A stretch of 64,000 bases of DNA. Origin: Soonwooa buanensis. Its GTDB lineage: Bacteria; Bacteroidota; Bacteroidia; Flavobacteriales; Weeksellaceae. Positions 7,478 through 15,632 of the stretch are shown here, piece after piece. Position numbers and translations under genes: made by a program. Position 1 is the stretch's first letter, and every line of letters begins with the position of its first letter. The stretch covers positions 434,001 through 498,000 of the forward strand of contig NZ_FUYZ01000001.1 of assembly GCF_900167905.1 (NCBI RefSeq), written 5' to 3'. The notes beneath the pieces were generated by a model. It was not told where the DNA came from. It worked only from the letters and a program-made list of their open reading frames with translations, and made no database searches.

Positions 7478-8959
7478 ATGGATAGTCCGGTTGAAATTCC
7501 TTATCAAAGTTTCATTAAAATCAATAGAGATTCTGAGGTCTCTCTATATATGCAAATCTCAAATCAGTTGATTAACGCAATACAACGTGGTTTTTTGCCC
7601 TTTGGAACAAAACTTCCGGGAACGAGAGCTTTAAGCCAGATTTTGGAGGTTCATAGAAATACAATTGTTTCAGTTTACGACGAATTATTTGCTCAAGGTT
7701 GGGTGGAAAGCCTTCCCAATAAAGGAACTTTCATTATTGGAAAAGATCAGGATAAATCTGTAGAATTTAGAAACTTTGAAAAAACACATCTTGAAAATTA
7801 TCCTAAAACGACAGGCTTTACATTCAAAACATCGAATATTTTAGATAACCCCTTTGAACATTCCAATTGTGAATATAATTTCAATGACGGAGTTCCGGAT
7901 ATTCGTTTAACCCAAATCAATCAGCATTCCAGAATTTACAGCTCTATTTTAAAAAGAAAAGCCCATAAAATAGGACAATACAATCAGGATGGGAGCGAAT
8001 TTTTCAAGAAAAATCTTTCAAAATATCTGAATCTATCAAGAGGATTACCTATTTCAGATAATAATCTTCTGATAACGAGAAGCACCGAAATGAGTATTTA
8101 TATTGCTTCGGAAATTCTTTTATCAAAAGGCGATACTGTTTTAGTTGGAGAATTAAGTTATTTCTCGGTCAATATGATTTTTCAGAAAGCTGGTGTAAAA
8201 ATTCAATCCGTATCGATTGATGGTGAAGGGGTCAATGTTGAAGAAGTTCGGAAAATCTGTGAGAAAGAGAAAATCAGAATGATTTATCTTACACCACATC
8301 ATCATTACCCTACTACAGTTACATTAAGTGCTCACAGAAGAATAGAACTTTTAAATCTTGCTAACGAATTTAATTTCATAATTTTAGAAGACGATTACGA
8401 TTATGATTTTCATTACGATAAAAGTCCAATTCTTCCTCTTGCAAGTGCTGATACCAGAGGAATGGTAGTCTATACTGGTTCTTTTGGAAAGTCTCTTGCG
8501 CCTGGCTTCCGTACAGGGTTTATAGTTGCTCCTGAAAACCTAATGATAGAAATGCGAAAATATCTCGGAATAATTGATAGGCAGGGTGATGTTTTGATGG
8601 AACATGTTTTGGGAGAAATGATTGCTGATGGAGAAATTAACAGATATTTAAAAAAATCATTGAAAATCTATAAGGAAAGAAGAGACCTTTTTTGTCTGTC
8701 TTTAGAAAATTCTTTGGGAAAATTTATTAATTTCAATAAGCCCTCCGGAGGACTTGCTGTGTGGATTGAGTGGAAAAAACCATTAAATTTAATACATTTA
8801 AGTAACGAATGTATCAAAAACAATGTCTTTATTCCGAGAACACTACTATATCAAAACAAAAACTTGACCGCAACTCGCCTTGGTTTTGGAAATTTAAATG
8901 TAGATGAAATTAATGAGTGTATAACTACAATAGCAAGTTGTGTAAAACGTATATGTTAA
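7478..8959 (+). CDS. MocR-family transcriptional regulator (GntR HTH plus aminotransferase domain)
   Basis: A 493-residue protein from the ATG at 7478; an in-frame ATG at 7454 is also possible. Residues about 15-85 form a GntR winged helix (LPGTRALSQILEVHRNTIVSVYDEL). The rest is a fold-type I aminotransferase domain with LEDDYDYDFHYD and the PLP lysine in GSFGKSLAPGFRTGF. MocR proteins sense PLP or an amino compound. This one is transcribed divergently from the biotin operon, 66 bases away, and no vitamin B6 gene is nearby, so it may regulate the operon and possibly itself. Confidence 0.88.
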   Translation: MDSPVEIPYQSFIKINRDSEVSLYMQISNQLINAIQRGFLPFGTKLPGTRALSQILEVHRNTIVSVYDELFAQGWVESLPNKGTFIIGKDQDKSVEFRNFEKTHLENYPKTTGFTFKTSNILDNPFEHSNCEYNFNDGVPDIRLTQINQHSRIYSSILKRKAHKIGQYNQDGSEFFKKNLSKYLNLSRGLPISDNNLLITRSTEMSIYIASEILLSKGDTVLVGELSYFSVNMIFQKAGVKIQSVSIDGEGVNVEEVRKICEKEKIRMIYLTPHHHYPTTVTLSAHRRIELLNLANEFNFIILEDDYDYDFHYDKSPILPLASADTRGMVVYTGSFGKSLAPGFRTGFIVAPENLMIEMRKYLGIIDRQGDVLMEHVLGEMIADGEINRYLKKSLKIYKERRDLFCLSLENSLGKFINFNKPSGGLAVWIEWKKPLNLIHLSNECIKNNVFIPRTLLYQNKNLTATRLGFGNLNVDEINECITTIASCVKRIC

Positions 8960-9026
8960 GATTTAAAATTGCTTTTTGAAAGGTCGTTGAGGTTTTATTT
9001 GTAAAAATCTTTTTTTTTGGAAAAAA

Positions 9027-9063
9027 GACACTATCCCGTAAAGTGTGTAAGTTAAAAAGTTAT
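9027..9063. repeat. isolated IS256-type terminal inverted repeat
   Basis: Reads GACACTATCCCGTAAAGTGT followed by GTAAGTTAAAAAGTTAT, the type of end seen in diverged form at 2447-2484. No transposase of that family follows: the IS3 element begins within about 20 bases. It is the scar of an IS256-family element whose body has been lost. Confidence 0.5.
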
Positions 9064-9183
9064 GGCTTAGATGAACTTGCAACTATTTTTGAGACAAAAT
9101 TTATATACTCTTTATGCTACATTTTTAGATTGATTAGACATTAAATTTTGATACTCTTTTATGGTTAAGTTTCCTAAAGCTGA

Positions 9184-9205
9184 AATCGAAGATTCGACGG
9201 AGTCA
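9184..9205. repeat. short insertion 1 in the IS3 transposase
   Basis: A 22-base insertion between CAT and TCAG on the minus strand, which shifts the frame after FYNTQRRH. It shares 20 of 22 bases with the insertion at 9434-9455, and both sit at the same CAT/TCAG context. On the plus strand it reads AATCGAAGATTCGACGGAGT plus CA and includes an AATC-GAA-GATT mini palindrome. Confidence 0.75.
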
Positions 9206-9433
9206 ATGCCTTCTCTGAGTGTTGTAAAATGTTTCTATATATTCAAACACAGAGTTTTTGGCATCATCTCTAGTTTCATATTTATTTTGATAAACAAGTT
9301 CTGTTTTCAGAGTTTTGAAAAAGCTCTCCGCTACAGCATTATCATAGCAGTTCCCTTTTCCACTCATTCGGATAATGTTTTTTCCGACCATTGACGTAAA
9401 TTCTGTGCACGCATACTGTATTCCCCTATCTGA

Positions 9434-9455
9434 AATCGGAGATTCGACGTAGTCA
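9434..9455. repeat. short insertion 2 in the IS3 transposase
   Basis: A 22-base insertion that splits the codons for H and S of the catalytic HSDRG motif. Flanks are CAT and TCAG on the minus strand, the same as at insertion 1. It differs from insertion 1 by two bases. The origin is unknown. Confidence 0.75.
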
Positions 9456-10051
9456 ATGGCAAATTAAACTGTCATGATCCTGTAAAGGACGATGGAGTCG
9501 TGCCATTTTCAAGGCGGCAATACTGGTATCCTGAGCCTTCATCATCTCACTCAGCGACCAGCCGATAACCTTGCTGTCAAATAGATCAATGACTGTAGTA
9601 AGATACAACCAACCCTGACCTGTGCGGATATAGGTAATATCAGAAACCCATGCTTTATTTTTTTCTTTCACTTGAAAATTCTGATTTAACAAGTTGGCTA
9701 CCACGGGATATTTGTGGGAAGAGTTTGTAGTTTTCTTGAATTTTCTTTTCACAATACTTCGTAGATTAAGCTCACGCATCAGCTTTGCTACAAAAGGACG
9801 AGAAGCATTCATTCCCTTTGATTCAAGTTCTCTGGCGATTCGAGGACTGCCATATCTGCCACGGCTCCAATGATAAATATGGAAGATCTCTGCAGATAAA
9901 ACAGATCTTCTTTCTGATCGCCCACTCGGTTTTCTTTTCTTCCAATGATAGAAACTGCTCCTGCTAACCTTTAATACTTCACACATCTTCCCGACAGGAA
10001 ACACAGTAGTGTGTTCTTTGATAAATTTATATCTTACCCGTCTCTCTTGGA

Positions 10052-10100
10052 AATTGAAGATTCGTGAATTCCTTTAAAAACAAAATAAAAATAATGAACA
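10052..10100. repeat. short insertion 3, at the orfA/orfB junction
   Basis: A 49-base insertion within the end of orfA: after GIF the frame should continue through SKRDG and a stop at TCCAAGAGAGACGGG, but 49 foreign bases come first. Its last 13 bases on the minus strand, CGAATCTTCAATT, match the ends of insertions 1 and 2 with one or two changes. All three stop immediately before TC. Confidence 0.6.
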
Positions 10101-10373
10101 AAAGATGCCTACCGCCTTTTTTAAGATGTCACGTTCTAGCTTTGTTTCTTCAAGTTCTTTTCGAAGCCTCAAAAGCTCTTCCCTTACGGGATCGAAGGAA
10201 ATTTGTTTTTCCTTGGTAAGCTTGCCTTCTTTGTGATGCTTTCTCCAATTGACTAGACTTTCTTTGCAGATCCCCAATTCTTGAGCTACTGAAGATATGT
10301 TGCCTCGCTGCTCACTTAAAGATACTGCTTGGATCTTAAACTCTAAACTGTAATTTTTTCTGATCTTTTTCAT
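10074..10373 (-). CDS. IS3-family transposase OrfA (altered C-terminus)
   Basis: A helix-turn-helix protein of 99 residues; the HTH_Tnp_1 part covers MKKIRKNYSLEFKIQAVSLS to about residue 50, followed by a coiled coil (REELLRLRKELEETKLERDI). The last nine residues (FCSLFLFCF) come from the 49-base insertion and replace the native end. The usual frameshift to orfB is therefore lost. It is probably non-functional for transposition. Confidence 0.75.
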   Translation of the reverse strand: MKKIRKNYSLEFKIQAVSLSEQRGNISSVAQELGICKESLVNWRKHHKEGKLTKEKQISFDPVREELLRLRKELEETKLERDILKKAVGIFCSLFLFCF

Positions 10374-10523
10374 ACTCTTAAAGATAAAGAGTATAAGAAT
10401 TGTGTCCTAACAAAGGTAGCAACTCCAGTTGGCAGTTGCGGTAACGAAGTGGACGCAATCTCCGTAGCGGCTGCGTATGAGTATAATGTCTATTATGTTA
10501 TTTGCTGGGGGAAGGCGTGGAAT

Positions 10524-10769
10524 TTAGTTCACTACTCTATTATCGCAATATTGTCTAAATTTAGTTCCATCAATGTCGCCATAATCTAATTTGTTATCAA
10601 GAATATATTTAATAAAATCATCAATGCTTGCATAACTTACCTGTAATTCTTTATTGATTGAATAGTGTTGTTCATAGTGCCACCACATATGTTTATTCAA
10701 TTTAATATCTTCTTCATCTGTGAATGGATTCTCAGATTCATTTTGAAAATATTTATAATCAATTTTCAT
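10524..10769 (-). CDS. hypothetical protein, 81 residues
   Basis: A small acidic protein beginning MKIDYKYFQNESENPF and rich in D, Y and N, with no signal peptide or membrane segment. I do not recognise its family. It begins 16 bases after the SRAP gene stop on the same strand, so it is probably cotranscribed with it. A helix-rich middle part and a short YGDIDGTKFRQYC segment are all that can be described. Confidence 0.5.
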   Translation of the reverse strand: MKIDYKYFQNESENPFTDEEDIKLNKHMWWHYEQHYSINKELQVSYASIDDFIKYILDNKLDYGDIDGTKFRQYCDNRVVN

Positions 10770-12438: not shown

Positions 12439-15400
12439 TTACCTATTCTTCTTAAAATTTTCCGCTTGTTCTAGTACATTTTTATAGACTTCTTCCTGCG
12501 TAATTGGAGGGTATCCAAATTCATGAAGCTTCACAATAATATCCATTTTAAGTTGTGCTTTTATATCATCTCTGTCGCTCCAATCGGGATATTTGGCCGT
12601 ATTTTCAACTATTATTTTTATTTCCCGAGCCAATTCTAACATTTTGTCCTTATCGAATTCAAAACCATATTGTTGACAGATCATATCCAAGATGTCGTAA
12701 AATGCTTTTTCTTCGTAATCGATTCCTAAATCCGCAAATGAATCCATTTCGACACGCAGCTTGATGATGAGATTCAGCATCTGTTCTGCAGTATCGAACT
12801 GAATGCCTTCGTAGTCTAAAATATCCCCTTCGCTTCGTTCGTTATATCGGTTTATAATGGACTGCAAACGCTCAGAAAAATCTTGACCTTTTACTTTATT
12901 AACCTTTTTGAAATCGTTAATGGTTTGTTTTAGTAATCGCTCTAAAATTTTAATCTTCGTATTGGGTAATTCCAAATTGGAAATTTTCTCAATGAATTTA
13001 TCGTTGAATAAATCAATCGCATTGGCTTTGTTATCGTCCAGTTTAAAGATTTCTTCTACCCCTTCCGAAACAATCGCTTCTTCCATTAAACGAGCCACCT
13101 TCTCGTTCATTTGAGCTGTATCTGGTGCTTCTCCTTTTGTTAATTTAACGACAATGGATTTAATCGCGAAATAGAAATGAATTTCATCAACTTCTTTTGG
13201 TGTAAACAGTTCGGAACCACTCACTAAATTGTACGCCGACTTTAACTTTTTAGTCACATTTACAAATAGTTTTTCCGATTCTTCTGTTTTTAAAACCAAT
13301 TCAGAAGCTCTGTTTAAGCAATTTAATCGTTCAATTGATAATTCTTCAAAATAATCTTTGGTATCGAACTTATTGAAAAACTGACGTAATAATTCTAATT
13401 GATCTCTTACCAAAATTTCTGCTTGCGCTGTATCTTCAAAATCATCATCCGCCGTTTGGTTATTGAACATTCCCAAGCCTTTATTCAGATTTTTCTTAAT
13501 GCCGATGTAATCAACCACCAGACCTCTATCTTTCCCTTCGTATTTACGATTCACACGAGAAATGGTCTGAATCAAATTATGCGTTTGCAAGGGTTTATCA
13601 ATGTAAATGGTATCTAAGAATGGAACATCAAAACCTGTTAACCACATATCTACTACAATAGCGATTTTGAAGTTGGATTTGATTTGTTTGAACTGACGAT
13701 CCAATTCTTTACGGTCGTCTTTATTTCCTAATAAGTCCCATAACTCCTTTTCATCGTCTTTGTTGCGTGTCATAATCATTTTAATACGCTCGATGGGTTT
13801 AATGTCCTTCTGTTCTTTCTCCGATAAGCCTACAGGAAGCATGATTTCGTTCCATTCCGGACGTAGTGCTAAAATTTCTTGAAACAATTTGTAGGCAATC
13901 CCACGAGAAGCACATACAAACATTGCTTTGCCCGCAACGGTTGCTTTTTCTTCTAATCGATTTTCATAATGCTCGATAAAATCTTGTGCAATGGCTTTGA
14001 TACGGTCTGTATCCCCTAACACCACTTCCATATTGGCAATGGCTTTTTGACTGGCTTCTACATGGTATTCTGAAGCACCTTCAGCTACTGCATTTTCATA
14101 ATAGGATTCAATTTCTTGAACTTTTTTGTAATCTAAATTAACTTTAGCTGCACGACCTTCGTACACCAATCGCACGGTGATTTCATCATTTACCGACTCG
14201 AACATCGTGTATTGATCGACCACCTCACCAAACACTTCTAAAGTCTTGTCTATTGGTGTCCCTGTAAAACCAACATAAGTTGCATTGGGTAAGGAATCGT
14301 GTAAATATTTGGCAAAGCCATAGGATTTGGTGACCGTGTTTTTGTCGTGGTCTATCTTTACTTTCAAATCCAAATTCACTTGCGAACGGTGGGCTTCATC
14401 GGAAATGCAAATGATGTTGGTACGATTGGATAAAATCTCATCATCTTCTGCAAATTTTTGAACCGTCGTTAAATAAACACCACCACTTTCAATACCTCGC
14501 AAACGCTCTCTTAAATCGGCTCTGGAATTTATGTTTATAATGTTTTCATCACCAATGAATTTCTTAGCGTTGGTAAAATCTTTGGATAATTGATCGTCTA
14601 AATCGGTACGGTCTGAAATAATGATAATCGTAGGACTGGCAAAATCTGTTGAACGCATTAATAAGCGCGACAAATATAACATCGTGTAACTTTTTCCACA
14701 ACCTGTTGCCCCAAAATAGGTTCCCCCTTTACCATCACCCTCGGGCTTACGGTGTTTTAAAATACTATCGTACAGTTTGTTGGCTGCATAATATTGTGGA
14801 TAGCGTGTTAAAATTTTAAGTTCGTGTTTTGAATTATCAGGAAATAAAATAAAATGATGCAGTATATCCACCAAACGCTTTTGATTCAACATACCATGCA
14901 CGATTGAGGTTGTGGTTTCGATCCCCGATAAGGCTTTCTTTTCCTCCCCTGTAATCTTGTTCCAACCGTAATAAAATTCATAGGAAGAAAAGAGTGTTCC
15001 CGCTTTGTTATTAACGCCATCCGAAATCACACAAAATGCATTGTATTTCATCAGTTCTGGAATATCTCTTCGGTAACGATTGGTTAATTGTTTGTAGGCA
15101 TCGTGAATGGTAATTTCTTCCTCGATAGCCGTTTTGAACTCAAAAACCACAACTGGAATTCCGTTGATGTATAAAATCAAATCAGGAATGCGAAGTTCAG
15201 AACCTTGAATTTCTAATTGGTTTACAATTTTGAATGTGTTTGAATTAACATCCTCCTTATCAATGTATTGAATGTGTAGGTCTTTTTTCGCAGGATTGTT
15301 GCGTTTGAATATTAAGCCATCCGCCAATAATTTGCAGATGTATTTGTTGGAATCGTACAAGTTGGACGCAGACTGAAAAGCAATTTCGTTGATGATGCTC

Positions 15401-15579
15401 TCTAGCTCCATAGGTTCCAAATCGGGATAATGCTGAAGCAAGAAGCTTTGCAAATCTTCTTTGATTAATACGTCCTGATTGGAAGCACGATCCAACTGTT
15501 TTCCGTTGATATAGTGATAGCCTTCTGTTTTCAAAAGGCTGATGAAAGCTTGTTCTAGTTGAGATTCGGTGTATTTCAT
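12439..15579 (-). CDS. hsdR: type I restriction enzyme, R subunit
   Basis: The motor and nuclease subunit of the type I system, about 1046 residues. The N-terminal HSDR_N nuclease has PD in ELRIPDLILYING and ExK in VVFEFKTA. The SF2 helicase follows with GATGCGKSY (Walker A), ISDEAHRSQ (DEAH) and GFTGTPI, and a C-terminal EcoEI-type region completes it. The ATG at 15579 (MKYTESQLEQAF) is chosen over one at 15615 because a copied remnant of the same start lies at 17230-17268. It is 53 bases after the AAA gene. Confidence 0.95.
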   Translation of the reverse strand: MKYTESQLEQAFISLLKTEGYHYINGKQLDRASNQDVLIKEDLQSFLLQHYPDLEPMELESIINEIAFQSASNLYDSNKYICKLLADGLIFKRNNPAKKDLHIQYIDKEDVNSNTFKIVNQLEIQGSELRIPDLILYINGIPVVVFEFKTAIEEEITIHDAYKQLTNRYRRDIPELMKYNAFCVISDGVNNKAGTLFSSYEFYYGWNKITGEEKKALSGIETTTSIVHGMLNQKRLVDILHHFILFPDNSKHELKILTRYPQYYAANKLYDSILKHRKPEGDGKGGTYFGATGCGKSYTMLYLSRLLMRSTDFASPTIIIISDRTDLDDQLSKDFTNAKKFIGDENIININSRADLRERLRGIESGGVYLTTVQKFAEDDEILSNRTNIICISDEAHRSQVNLDLKVKIDHDKNTVTKSYGFAKYLHDSLPNATYVGFTGTPIDKTLEVFGEVVDQYTMFESVNDEITVRLVYEGRAAKVNLDYKKVQEIESYYENAVAEGASEYHVEASQKAIANMEVVLGDTDRIKAIAQDFIEHYENRLEEKATVAGKAMFVCASRGIAYKLFQEILALRPEWNEIMLPVGLSEKEQKDIKPIERIKMIMTRNKDDEKELWDLLGNKDDRKELDRQFKQIKSNFKIAIVVDMWLTGFDVPFLDTIYIDKPLQTHNLIQTISRVNRKYEGKDRGLVVDYIGIKKNLNKGLGMFNNQTADDDFEDTAQAEILVRDQLELLRQFFNKFDTKDYFEELSIERLNCLNRASELVLKTEESEKLFVNVTKKLKSAYNLVSGSELFTPKEVDEIHFYFAIKSIVVKLTKGEAPDTAQMNEKVARLMEEAIVSEGVEEIFKLDDNKANAIDLFNDKFIEKISNLELPNTKIKILERLLKQTINDFKKVNKVKGQDFSERLQSIINRYNERSEGDILDYEGIQFDTAEQMLNLIIKLRVEMDSFADLGIDYEEKAFYDILDMICQQYGFEFDKDKMLELAREIKIIVENTAKYPDWSDRDDIKAQLKMDIIVKLHEFGYPPITQEEVYKNVLEQAENFKKNR

Positions 15580-15632
15580 GCTAGTGTTTTTCAAGTATAG
15601 TTTTTTTGTTTCCAATTAATGGATCGTATCCA

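Follow-up and report, generated by a model that had tools for sequence, protein, structure and literature searches.

The window, by which we mean the whole 64,000-nucleotide stretch of DNA that was analyzed, carries on its minus strand an insertion sequence of the IS3 family. The Soonwooa buanensis genome (G000) has one full-length copy of this element (9072-10427), and that copy contains three short inserts. The features of the locus are as follows.

9072..10427, minus strand: IS3-family element, its ends taken from a C. limigenitum copy matching query 14-1369
9182..9183, plus strand: GA of the target, to the left of insert 1, the base after the insert being A (9206); the site is empty in C. 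limigenitum
9184..9205, plus strand: insert 1, 22-bp element A; A 9184, hairpin 1 ATC-GAA-GAT 9185-9193, TC 9194-9195, hairpin 2 GAC-GGA-GTC 9196-9204, A 9205
9434..9455, plus strand: insert 2, 22-bp element A; hairpin 1 ATC-GGA-GAT 9435-9443, TC 9444-9445, hairpin 2 GAC-GTA-GTC 9446-9454; target GA 9432-9433
10052..10100, plus strand: insert 3, 49-bp element B; hairpin 1 ATT-GAA-GAT 10053-10061, TC 10062-10063, A 10100; target GA 10050-10051
10064-10070 (GTGAATT) with 10093-10099 (AATGAAC), plus strand: imperfect second hairpin of insert 3, with an A-rich loop between
10074..10373, minus strand: IS3 orfA reading frame, which runs into insert 3
9453..10004, minus strand: IS3 orfB frame piece lying between inserts 3 and 2, with relatives that are 50-58% identical
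9203..9391, minus strand: IS3 orfB frame piece between inserts 2 and 1

The initial annotation had placed three interruptions of the IS3 element at 9184-9205, 9434-9455 and 10052-10100, and these coordinates were borne out; relatives of the element with an unbroken HSDRG motif exist. Read on the plus strand, the two 22-mers are AATCGAAGATTCGACGGAGTCA (9184-9205) and AATCGGAGATTCGACGTAGTCA (9434-9455), both with CTGA immediately before and ATG immediately after. They agree at 20 of 22 positions, as had been claimed, and the two mismatches each change the central base of a GNA loop. The 49-mer had been said to share 13 bases with the first insert; the likeness is present, but it amounts to 12 of 13 bases (AATTGAAGATTCG, with which insert 3 (10052-10100) starts, versus AATCGAAGATTCG). 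The resemblance of the 22-mers, earlier held to be beyond chance, is indeed so: a 26-base pattern allowing ≤3 mismatches found the two inserts only, and nothing in 100 shuffles. Taken alone, the likeness between the 49-mer and the 22-mers is weak (a 15-base pattern with 2 mismatches has 3 matches in the window, equalled in 4 of 100 shuffles), and we accept their kinship because a family of such elements, element B, was found in other genomes. Throughout the 3.33-Mb genome, no third 22-mer was detected (24-base pattern, 3 mismatches), the 49-type pattern matched once, and four further near-matches to the first 15 bases all proved on reading to be without the second hairpin. All three members found in the genome therefore fall in one 1.36-kb element, for which the chance under uniform placement is ~1.7e-7.

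Elsewhere in the window, pieces of ~28-43 bp from just beyond the IS3 end (9030-9071; query up to 1411) recur at 86-97% identity in many Weeksellaceae genomes, and this stretch is probably the end of another insertion sequence. A 26-bp piece at 38085-38110 matches a segment of the IS3 orfB region at 96% identity, and a long frame near the IS3 element (12439-15615) resembles by eye the restriction subunit of a type I restriction-modification system.

Intact copies of the IS3 element, aligned at the three sites, provided the corresponding empty sites: C. limigenitum copies with 90-97% identity near the sites lack the inserts, with exact junctions. More specifically, the joined 60-base flanks of each insert were run as queries against C. 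limigenitum, in which site 1 gave 11 hits (9 span the junction, 9/9 uninterrupted at 96-97% identity; 2 end short), site 2 gave 9 hits (1 spans the junction, 1/1 uninterrupted at 90% identity; 8 end short), and site 3 gave 10 hits (6 span the junction, 6/6 uninterrupted at 94-95% identity; 4 end short), with one C. limigenitum copy counted twice, as loci L335 and L348 overlap. At site 3, the first base after the insert is A in the window and G in C. limigenitum. The C. limigenitum genome (G717) holds at least 40 matches to the window element, eight of them to the 22-mer only. Its locus NZ_FPKW01000014.1 (L110), picked up in the 22-mer search and carrying a 22-mer elsewhere, contains part of the same IS3 without insert 1, and its full-length copy L334 aligns to the window IS3 at 80% identity overall, gaps included. 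More distant relatives with an open frame are found in genome G009 (eleven matches, 52% protein identity, a 319-codon frame; two were read), and IS3 relatives on plasmids comprise 6 records at E<=1e-40, all below 60% identity. Genome G214 has an IS3, by eye of another subfamily, with a type-B insert at the equivalent position, where orfA meets orfB; this insert may be an independent event or may reflect common descent. When joined flanks were compared with uninterrupted copies across the loci of the family, matches were obtained at up to 103 of 203 sites, an upper bound given that one of the eight alignments shown (L285 versus L073) has a filled subject.

The inserted bases are thus absent from IS3 relatives, and the outcome under which intact relatives would carry them as normal sequence did not occur. 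Ordinary IS sequence is ruled out by the empty sites in C. limigenitum relatives. As a whole, the reading that the inserts represent ordinary IS sequence, chance or an assembly artefact has a negligible probability, considering both the relatives without these bases and the many independently sequenced genomes that carry the element in other contexts.

The 22-mer was indeed found widely, in hundreds of other places, such that the outcome of its being found nowhere else did not occur either. The pattern GAAATCGRAGATTCGACGKAGTCA matched at least 119 stretches in the named-genome collection; among the 80 listed by name, most are from Chryseobacterium, and the other hosts are Kaistella, Winogradskyella, Lutibacter, Hanstruepera, rumen Bacteroidales bins, Saprospiraceae bins and one bin labelled Acinetobacter. 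A search of Weeksellaceae with one mismatch allowed and the loop base free detected the 22-mer in 177 of 296 genomes (743 copies, at most 21 per genome), with 0 for the reversed-pattern control. Across the phylum, 11 of 395 genomes carried it, namely 8 of 9 in the family of the window and 3 of 386 outside it (one control hit). The 22-mer is thus concentrated in Weeksellaceae and rare elsewhere. Carriage by viruses was rejected, as the viral contigs searched had 0 exact matches to the element. A literature search that included motif strings, and outside which most subscription papers lay, found no description of this element. The IS3 element probably gathered its inserts in an earlier host and reached this genome by transfer, carrying them with it, because it is multi-copy in a Chryseobacterium that has the elements, while it is single here and no other copy of the elements was found.

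Certain repeats were recorded during these searches as separate observations. At five loci from rumen or gut Bacteroidales (L050, L056, L075, L092 and L133), the 22-mer is found time and again within a single dispersed host hairpin (AGTCCT...AAGGACG), as though the two had spread together or the 22-mer had inserted there more than once. A dispersed repeat of genome G036 (L029, L241-L246) carries, in each of the seven copies shown, an element B together with a 22-mer-like element oriented the other way.

The 22-mers follow the plan A-[ATC GAA GAT]-TC-[GAC GNA GTC]-A, i.e., two mini-hairpins whose GNA loops are both closed by C-G. Across 144 canonical copies, loop 1 was GAA in 134, GGA in 6, GCA in 3 and GTA in 1, and loop 2 was GTA in 84, GGA in 36, GAA in 21 and GCA in 3, the latter tally being shaped by a first-scan pattern that favours GGA and GTA and by loci mostly fetched for carrying the 22-mer. 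All four loop variants also turned up in the Weeksellaceae search, in which the loop-2 base was free. A loop-class scan at spacing 2, whose total of 157 is not unbiased as most loci were chosen as 22-mer carriers, returned 0-26 for six other loop classes; the "TC" class is the GNA class on the opposite strand and hence no control. To this we add covariation. A pairing-blind scan for diverged copies yielded 15 with 2 to 5 changes, compared with at most 1 in each of six controls (shuffled or reversed consensus). In these copies, the mini-hairpin model accounted for 8 compensatory cells (in 7 copies, of which L329 and L330 are probably one event) versus 1 for an alternative TCGA/TCGA stem, and one-sided changes numbered 12 and 18, respectively. 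Speaking against this reading, the predicted folding energies of the inserts, computed as DNA and as RNA, were no better than those of shuffles, and for the 22-mers as DNA the folding program favours the other, 4-bp stem (the alternative TCGA/TCGA); its parameters may omit the special stability of GNA loops in DNA.

We found that the 49-mer belongs to a sister subfamily. Element B keeps hairpin 1 and TC, and its second hairpin is a 3-bp stem around a long A-rich loop (GATTCCTTTAAAA...GA), with the stem variants GCC/GGC, ATC/GAT, ACT/AGT, GCT/AGC, GGC/GCC, TCC/GGA and GAC/GTC. Once eight rows from a single conserved upstream site had been left out, pairing of the arms was seen in 33 of 54 rows, whereas 2000 shuffles averaged 8.4 and reached at most 16; the arms of the window's own element B (10052-10100) were not paired in this test. 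The element-B pattern occurs in 49 of 296 Weeksellaceae genomes (one control hit), of which ~16 are probably not true members: among the matches shown, 12 loci represent a single conserved position ahead of a gene, 3 represent another conserved site and 1 is chance-like. Genome G004 has 19 element-B matches and no 22-mer. As a separate observation, a sequence resembling the start of element B occupies a single conserved position near 1500 of L191-L209, just ahead of a gene whose product begins with MSKKLIVIA or a similar sequence, in 12 genomes of genus g21 among those shown; this site may have been domesticated, or may be part of a short reading frame.

Further types share the plan. Element C (28 bp, AACCTAACGAAGTGGTTCGGCGTAGCCA), which was spotted in the L334 alignment ahead of any scan, has other stems and sits in that C. 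limigenitum IS3 copy at another GA^A; its relatives are at L015, L018, L032 and L219. Type D reads A ATG-CTCNG-CAT TC hairpin A (L048, L050, L056, L145). A subfamily scan of the window and the fetched loci, in which types C and D were included and which required the outer A's, TC and a G-N-A hairpin but left the flanks free, gave 147 hits, i.e., 122 canonical and 25 others, a total that is not unbiased with loci mostly fetched for the 22-mer; controls gave 5-25 for other linkers and 5-10 for other loops. Single non-canonical hits, scarcely above these controls, may be chance, and types C and D were kept because they recur. At 12 of 12 sites of types C, D and E, GA or CA precedes the element and A follows it, the flanks having been free in the scan.

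The junctions of 164 unique sites have a clear consensus, with G (95%) and A (100%) before the insert and A (99%), then A or T, after it. This supports the proposal of the initial annotation that a mobile sequence or an insertion process with target preference is at work, the target being GA^A(A/T), sometimes with CA in place of GA. The boundaries of the inserts are ambiguous by one or two A, which may represent a target duplication of that size; at these exact junctions, a duplication of several bases is absent. The family lies mostly between genes, with 10 of 201 unique sites in open frames of at least 100 codons, and convergent neighbours (39) outnumber divergent ones (13) at intergenic sites. 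Strand bias relative to GC skew was not observed (74/129, p 0.11).

Hairpins and dispersed palindromic repeats often host the elements. A perfect stem of 6 bp or longer surrounds 15% of sites versus 1.2% of control GAA positions in the same loci, although these sites are not independent, many hosts being copies of the same repeats. Such enrichment of target hairpin tips speaks for a process without a dedicated enzyme, in which template switching at hairpins during replication or repair would copy the sequence. We nevertheless regard it as improbable: a fixed 22-base sequence placed at an exact GA^A in unrelated contexts needs a specific source and a cut, and 85% of the sites lie outside perfect stems of ≥6 bp.

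A route through RNA, in which an RNA copy of the element is reverse transcribed and then inserted, has been suggested for cyanobacterial small dispersed repeats. The small folded units, their precise insertion, and host sites that are often hairpins (some terminator-like by eye) all fit such a route, which we nonetheless consider unlikely for three reasons: (i) flanking genes run symmetrically relative to element orientation (51 same, 47 opposite); (ii) the window interval 8900-10600 has no Rfam match, on which ground a known RNA family was rejected; and (iii) the GNA loops are closed by C-G, and mini-hairpins with GNA loops and G-C stems are, according to an excerpt of PMC4686876, exceptionally stable in DNA, which favours single-stranded DNA over RNA as the form that moves.

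The best candidate movers of the elements are Y1 (HUH) transposases with the motif Y---Q--HH ("subclass 1.2"). Genes for Y1_Tnp (PF01797) were counted in 26 genomes picked by element content and then in the 296 Weeksellaceae genomes, where Y1 was present in 154 of 177 genomes with the 22-mer versus 50 of 119 without it (odds ratio 9). Counting against Y1, besides those 50 genomes, 23 genomes bear the 22-mer with no Y1 hit at E<=1e-12, one of which (G249) has 8 copies; element copies may outlive the enzyme in such genomes. Y1 and element counts were correlated by rank over the 296 genomes (rho 0.51) and within genera g21 (0.47, 149 genomes) and g27 (0.48, 36 genomes), and the lack of such a correlation in genus g9 (-0.14, 23 genomes) counts against Y1. 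Control rve transposases, recorded up to 15 per genome, gave rho values of 0.12 overall, 0.10 in g21 and 0.31 in g27; upon within-genus shuffling, the Y1 value was reached in 0 of 2000 trials and the rve value in 64 of 2000. The Y1-element correlation was still 0.51 without eight genomes having IS200-like Y1 hits, and it is not proof of cause. A separate observation concerns genome G229, in which 14 Y1 hits, mostly near-identical IS200-type copies, occur with the 22-mer absent; in this genome, the ordinary IS200 type and the element are not found together.

The rve data also bear on the idea that the inserts are miniature derivatives moved by a DDE transposase, for example by the IS3 in which they lie here. 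Element counts scarcely track rve counts (rho 0.12, with rve recorded up to 15 per genome), target duplications longer than one or two A are absent, and the ends AATCGAAG and NAGTCA are by inspection not inverted copies of each other, leaving this idea very unlikely. A DDE MITE was rejected on the absence of terminal inverted repeats and the weak rve correlation.

Among 12 Y1 proteins read from 30 loci, 11 have Y-I-x-N-Q-x-x-H-H. In a portion of PMC6006769, Y---Q--HH marks subclass 1.2 of Y1 proteins, which is found mostly in Cyanobacteria and Bacteroidetes and generally lacks typical IS200 end structures. All eight Y1 proteins compared with NCBIfam models scored above the IS200/IS605 cut-off, and 0 of 8 reached the RAYT cut-off. 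We then turn to the flanks of 19 Y1 loci with an intact frame of the motif, in which G..A loops (GNA or GNNA, either strand) were surveyed. Hairpins with such loops occur at 5.4 per kb within 300 bp of the Y1 genes versus 0.70 per kb farther off, other hairpins at 3.3 per kb both near and farther, and non-coding control DNA has 0.78 and 4.2 per kb, respectively. Expressed as shares, G..A loops make up 62 of 100 hairpins within 300 bp versus 30 of 172 at greater distance (p 1e-13) and 181 of 1152 in the non-coding control, the Y1-flank hairpins including repeated arrays and hence not being independent. Enzyme genes and tiny elements therefore have the same kind of loop. That the flank hairpins have longer stems and sequences unlike those of the elements counts against Y1, as does the lack of a canonical 22-mer immediately adjoining the Y1 gene at any of 30 loci; in two genomes only (L329, L330), a diverged copy is found ~1 kb from a Y1 gene. 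As individual observations, subclass 1.2 Y1 genes at L305, L309, L315, L331 and L333 are flanked by repeated GNA-loop hairpins, and L305 has two G..A-loop hairpins per side of the gene, inverted.

The lack of strand bias (74/129) also counts against Y1, as lagging-strand transposition might give one. A TnpA-REP that cuts at CA as well as at CT, its sites being steered by guide bases, is described in part of PMC8266576, and a cut at (G/C)A|A is thus not out of character for such enzymes. The TTC ahead of hairpin 2 could pair with the target GAA; CA^A targets occur without a changed guide, and IS608-like guide pairing is not supported by covariation.

As judged from sequence comparison, our data demonstrate dispersal, empty sites, precise insertion at (G/C)A^A, covariation of the stems and a common plan of the subfamilies, and the inserts are almost certainly tiny mobile double-hairpin elements. 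They would be non-autonomous units of 22 to about 50 bp with the body A, hairpin 1, TC, hairpin 2, A, moving as single-stranded DNA. A Y1 (HUH) transposase of subclass 1.2, with the Y---Q--HH motif, would recognise the folded hairpins and nick beside the element, and the element would then be joined to a (G/C)A|A site lying open in single-stranded DNA or at a hairpin tip. For the Y1 mechanism itself our preference is slight; the explanation as a whole, non-autonomous double-hairpin elements plus a candidate Y1 mover, we favour with moderate confidence. More tentatively, and with doubt outweighing belief, the elements may constitute a distinct class of DNA-transposon cargo: 22 bp in length, consisting of only two GNA mini-hairpins, moved by subclass 1.2 Y1 enzymes that perhaps also stand behind cyanobacterial SDR (small dispersed repeats), the latter because subclass 1.2 is reported mainly from Cyanobacteria and Bacteroidetes. 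Our analysis supports the initial annotation on the facts and on the kind of explanation; what it adds is the double mini-hairpin plan, the 49-mer as a sister subfamily and the link to Y1. The elements would rank among the smallest mobile DNAs known, and because they offer clean empty and filled sites, a defined target, a covarying fold and few candidate enzymes, the movement of REP/SDR-like elements becomes directly testable.

Among the closest likenesses by description is that to the SDR of Nostoc and other cyanobacteria, which Elhai in 2008 reportedly described as dispersed, mobile units of 21-27 nt, and whose common predicted fold is said to be backed by compensatory changes. Our 22-bp dispersed unit with empty sites resembles this definition, as does a fold backed by compensatory changes, the comparison being one of descriptions. 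The cyanobacteria are another phylum, however, and unlike SDR so described, the present elements insert at a defined (G/C)A^A target, are built of tandem GNA mini-hairpins and have a Y1 enzyme as candidate mover. In fungal mitochondrial DNA, double-hairpin elements also consist of two hairpins inserted at many sites, but they belong to organelle genomes, and the likeness is one of description. The 2008 SDR work is cited in a section of PMC3116915. With IS200/IS605 and subclass 1.2 Y1 systems, the elements would share the candidate enzyme family and a single-strand, hairpin-based recognition; whereas subclass 1.2 is described, in the portion of PMC6006769 mentioned above, without typical IS200 ends, here GNA-type hairpins flank the genes and tiny separate elements are the proposed cargo. 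The REP/RAYT (TnpA-REP) system, another of the closest likenesses, also has tiny DNA hairpins, which a Y1 HUH enzyme probably mobilises in trans, and REPs inserted within palindromes are known (an excerpt of PMC3733652). REPs have a GTAG/GTGG foot, with stems of 7-20 bp in the search model given in that portion of PMC6006769, and ones with 5-bp stems are on record in part of PMC8266576. In contrast, the elements lack the conserved GTAG/GTGG foot, the N of G-N-AG being free, and have stems of 3 bp versus the REP basal stem of 7-20 bp. A REP element identified by a GTAG tag was rejected on the free N (GTA 84, GGA 36, GAA 21, GCA 3 of 144), and the elements fail the REP definition on both tag and stem length. 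The elements appear to work like the smallest mobile repeats known, namely SDR and REP, and there is a fair chance that they form a separate, Y1-driven class.
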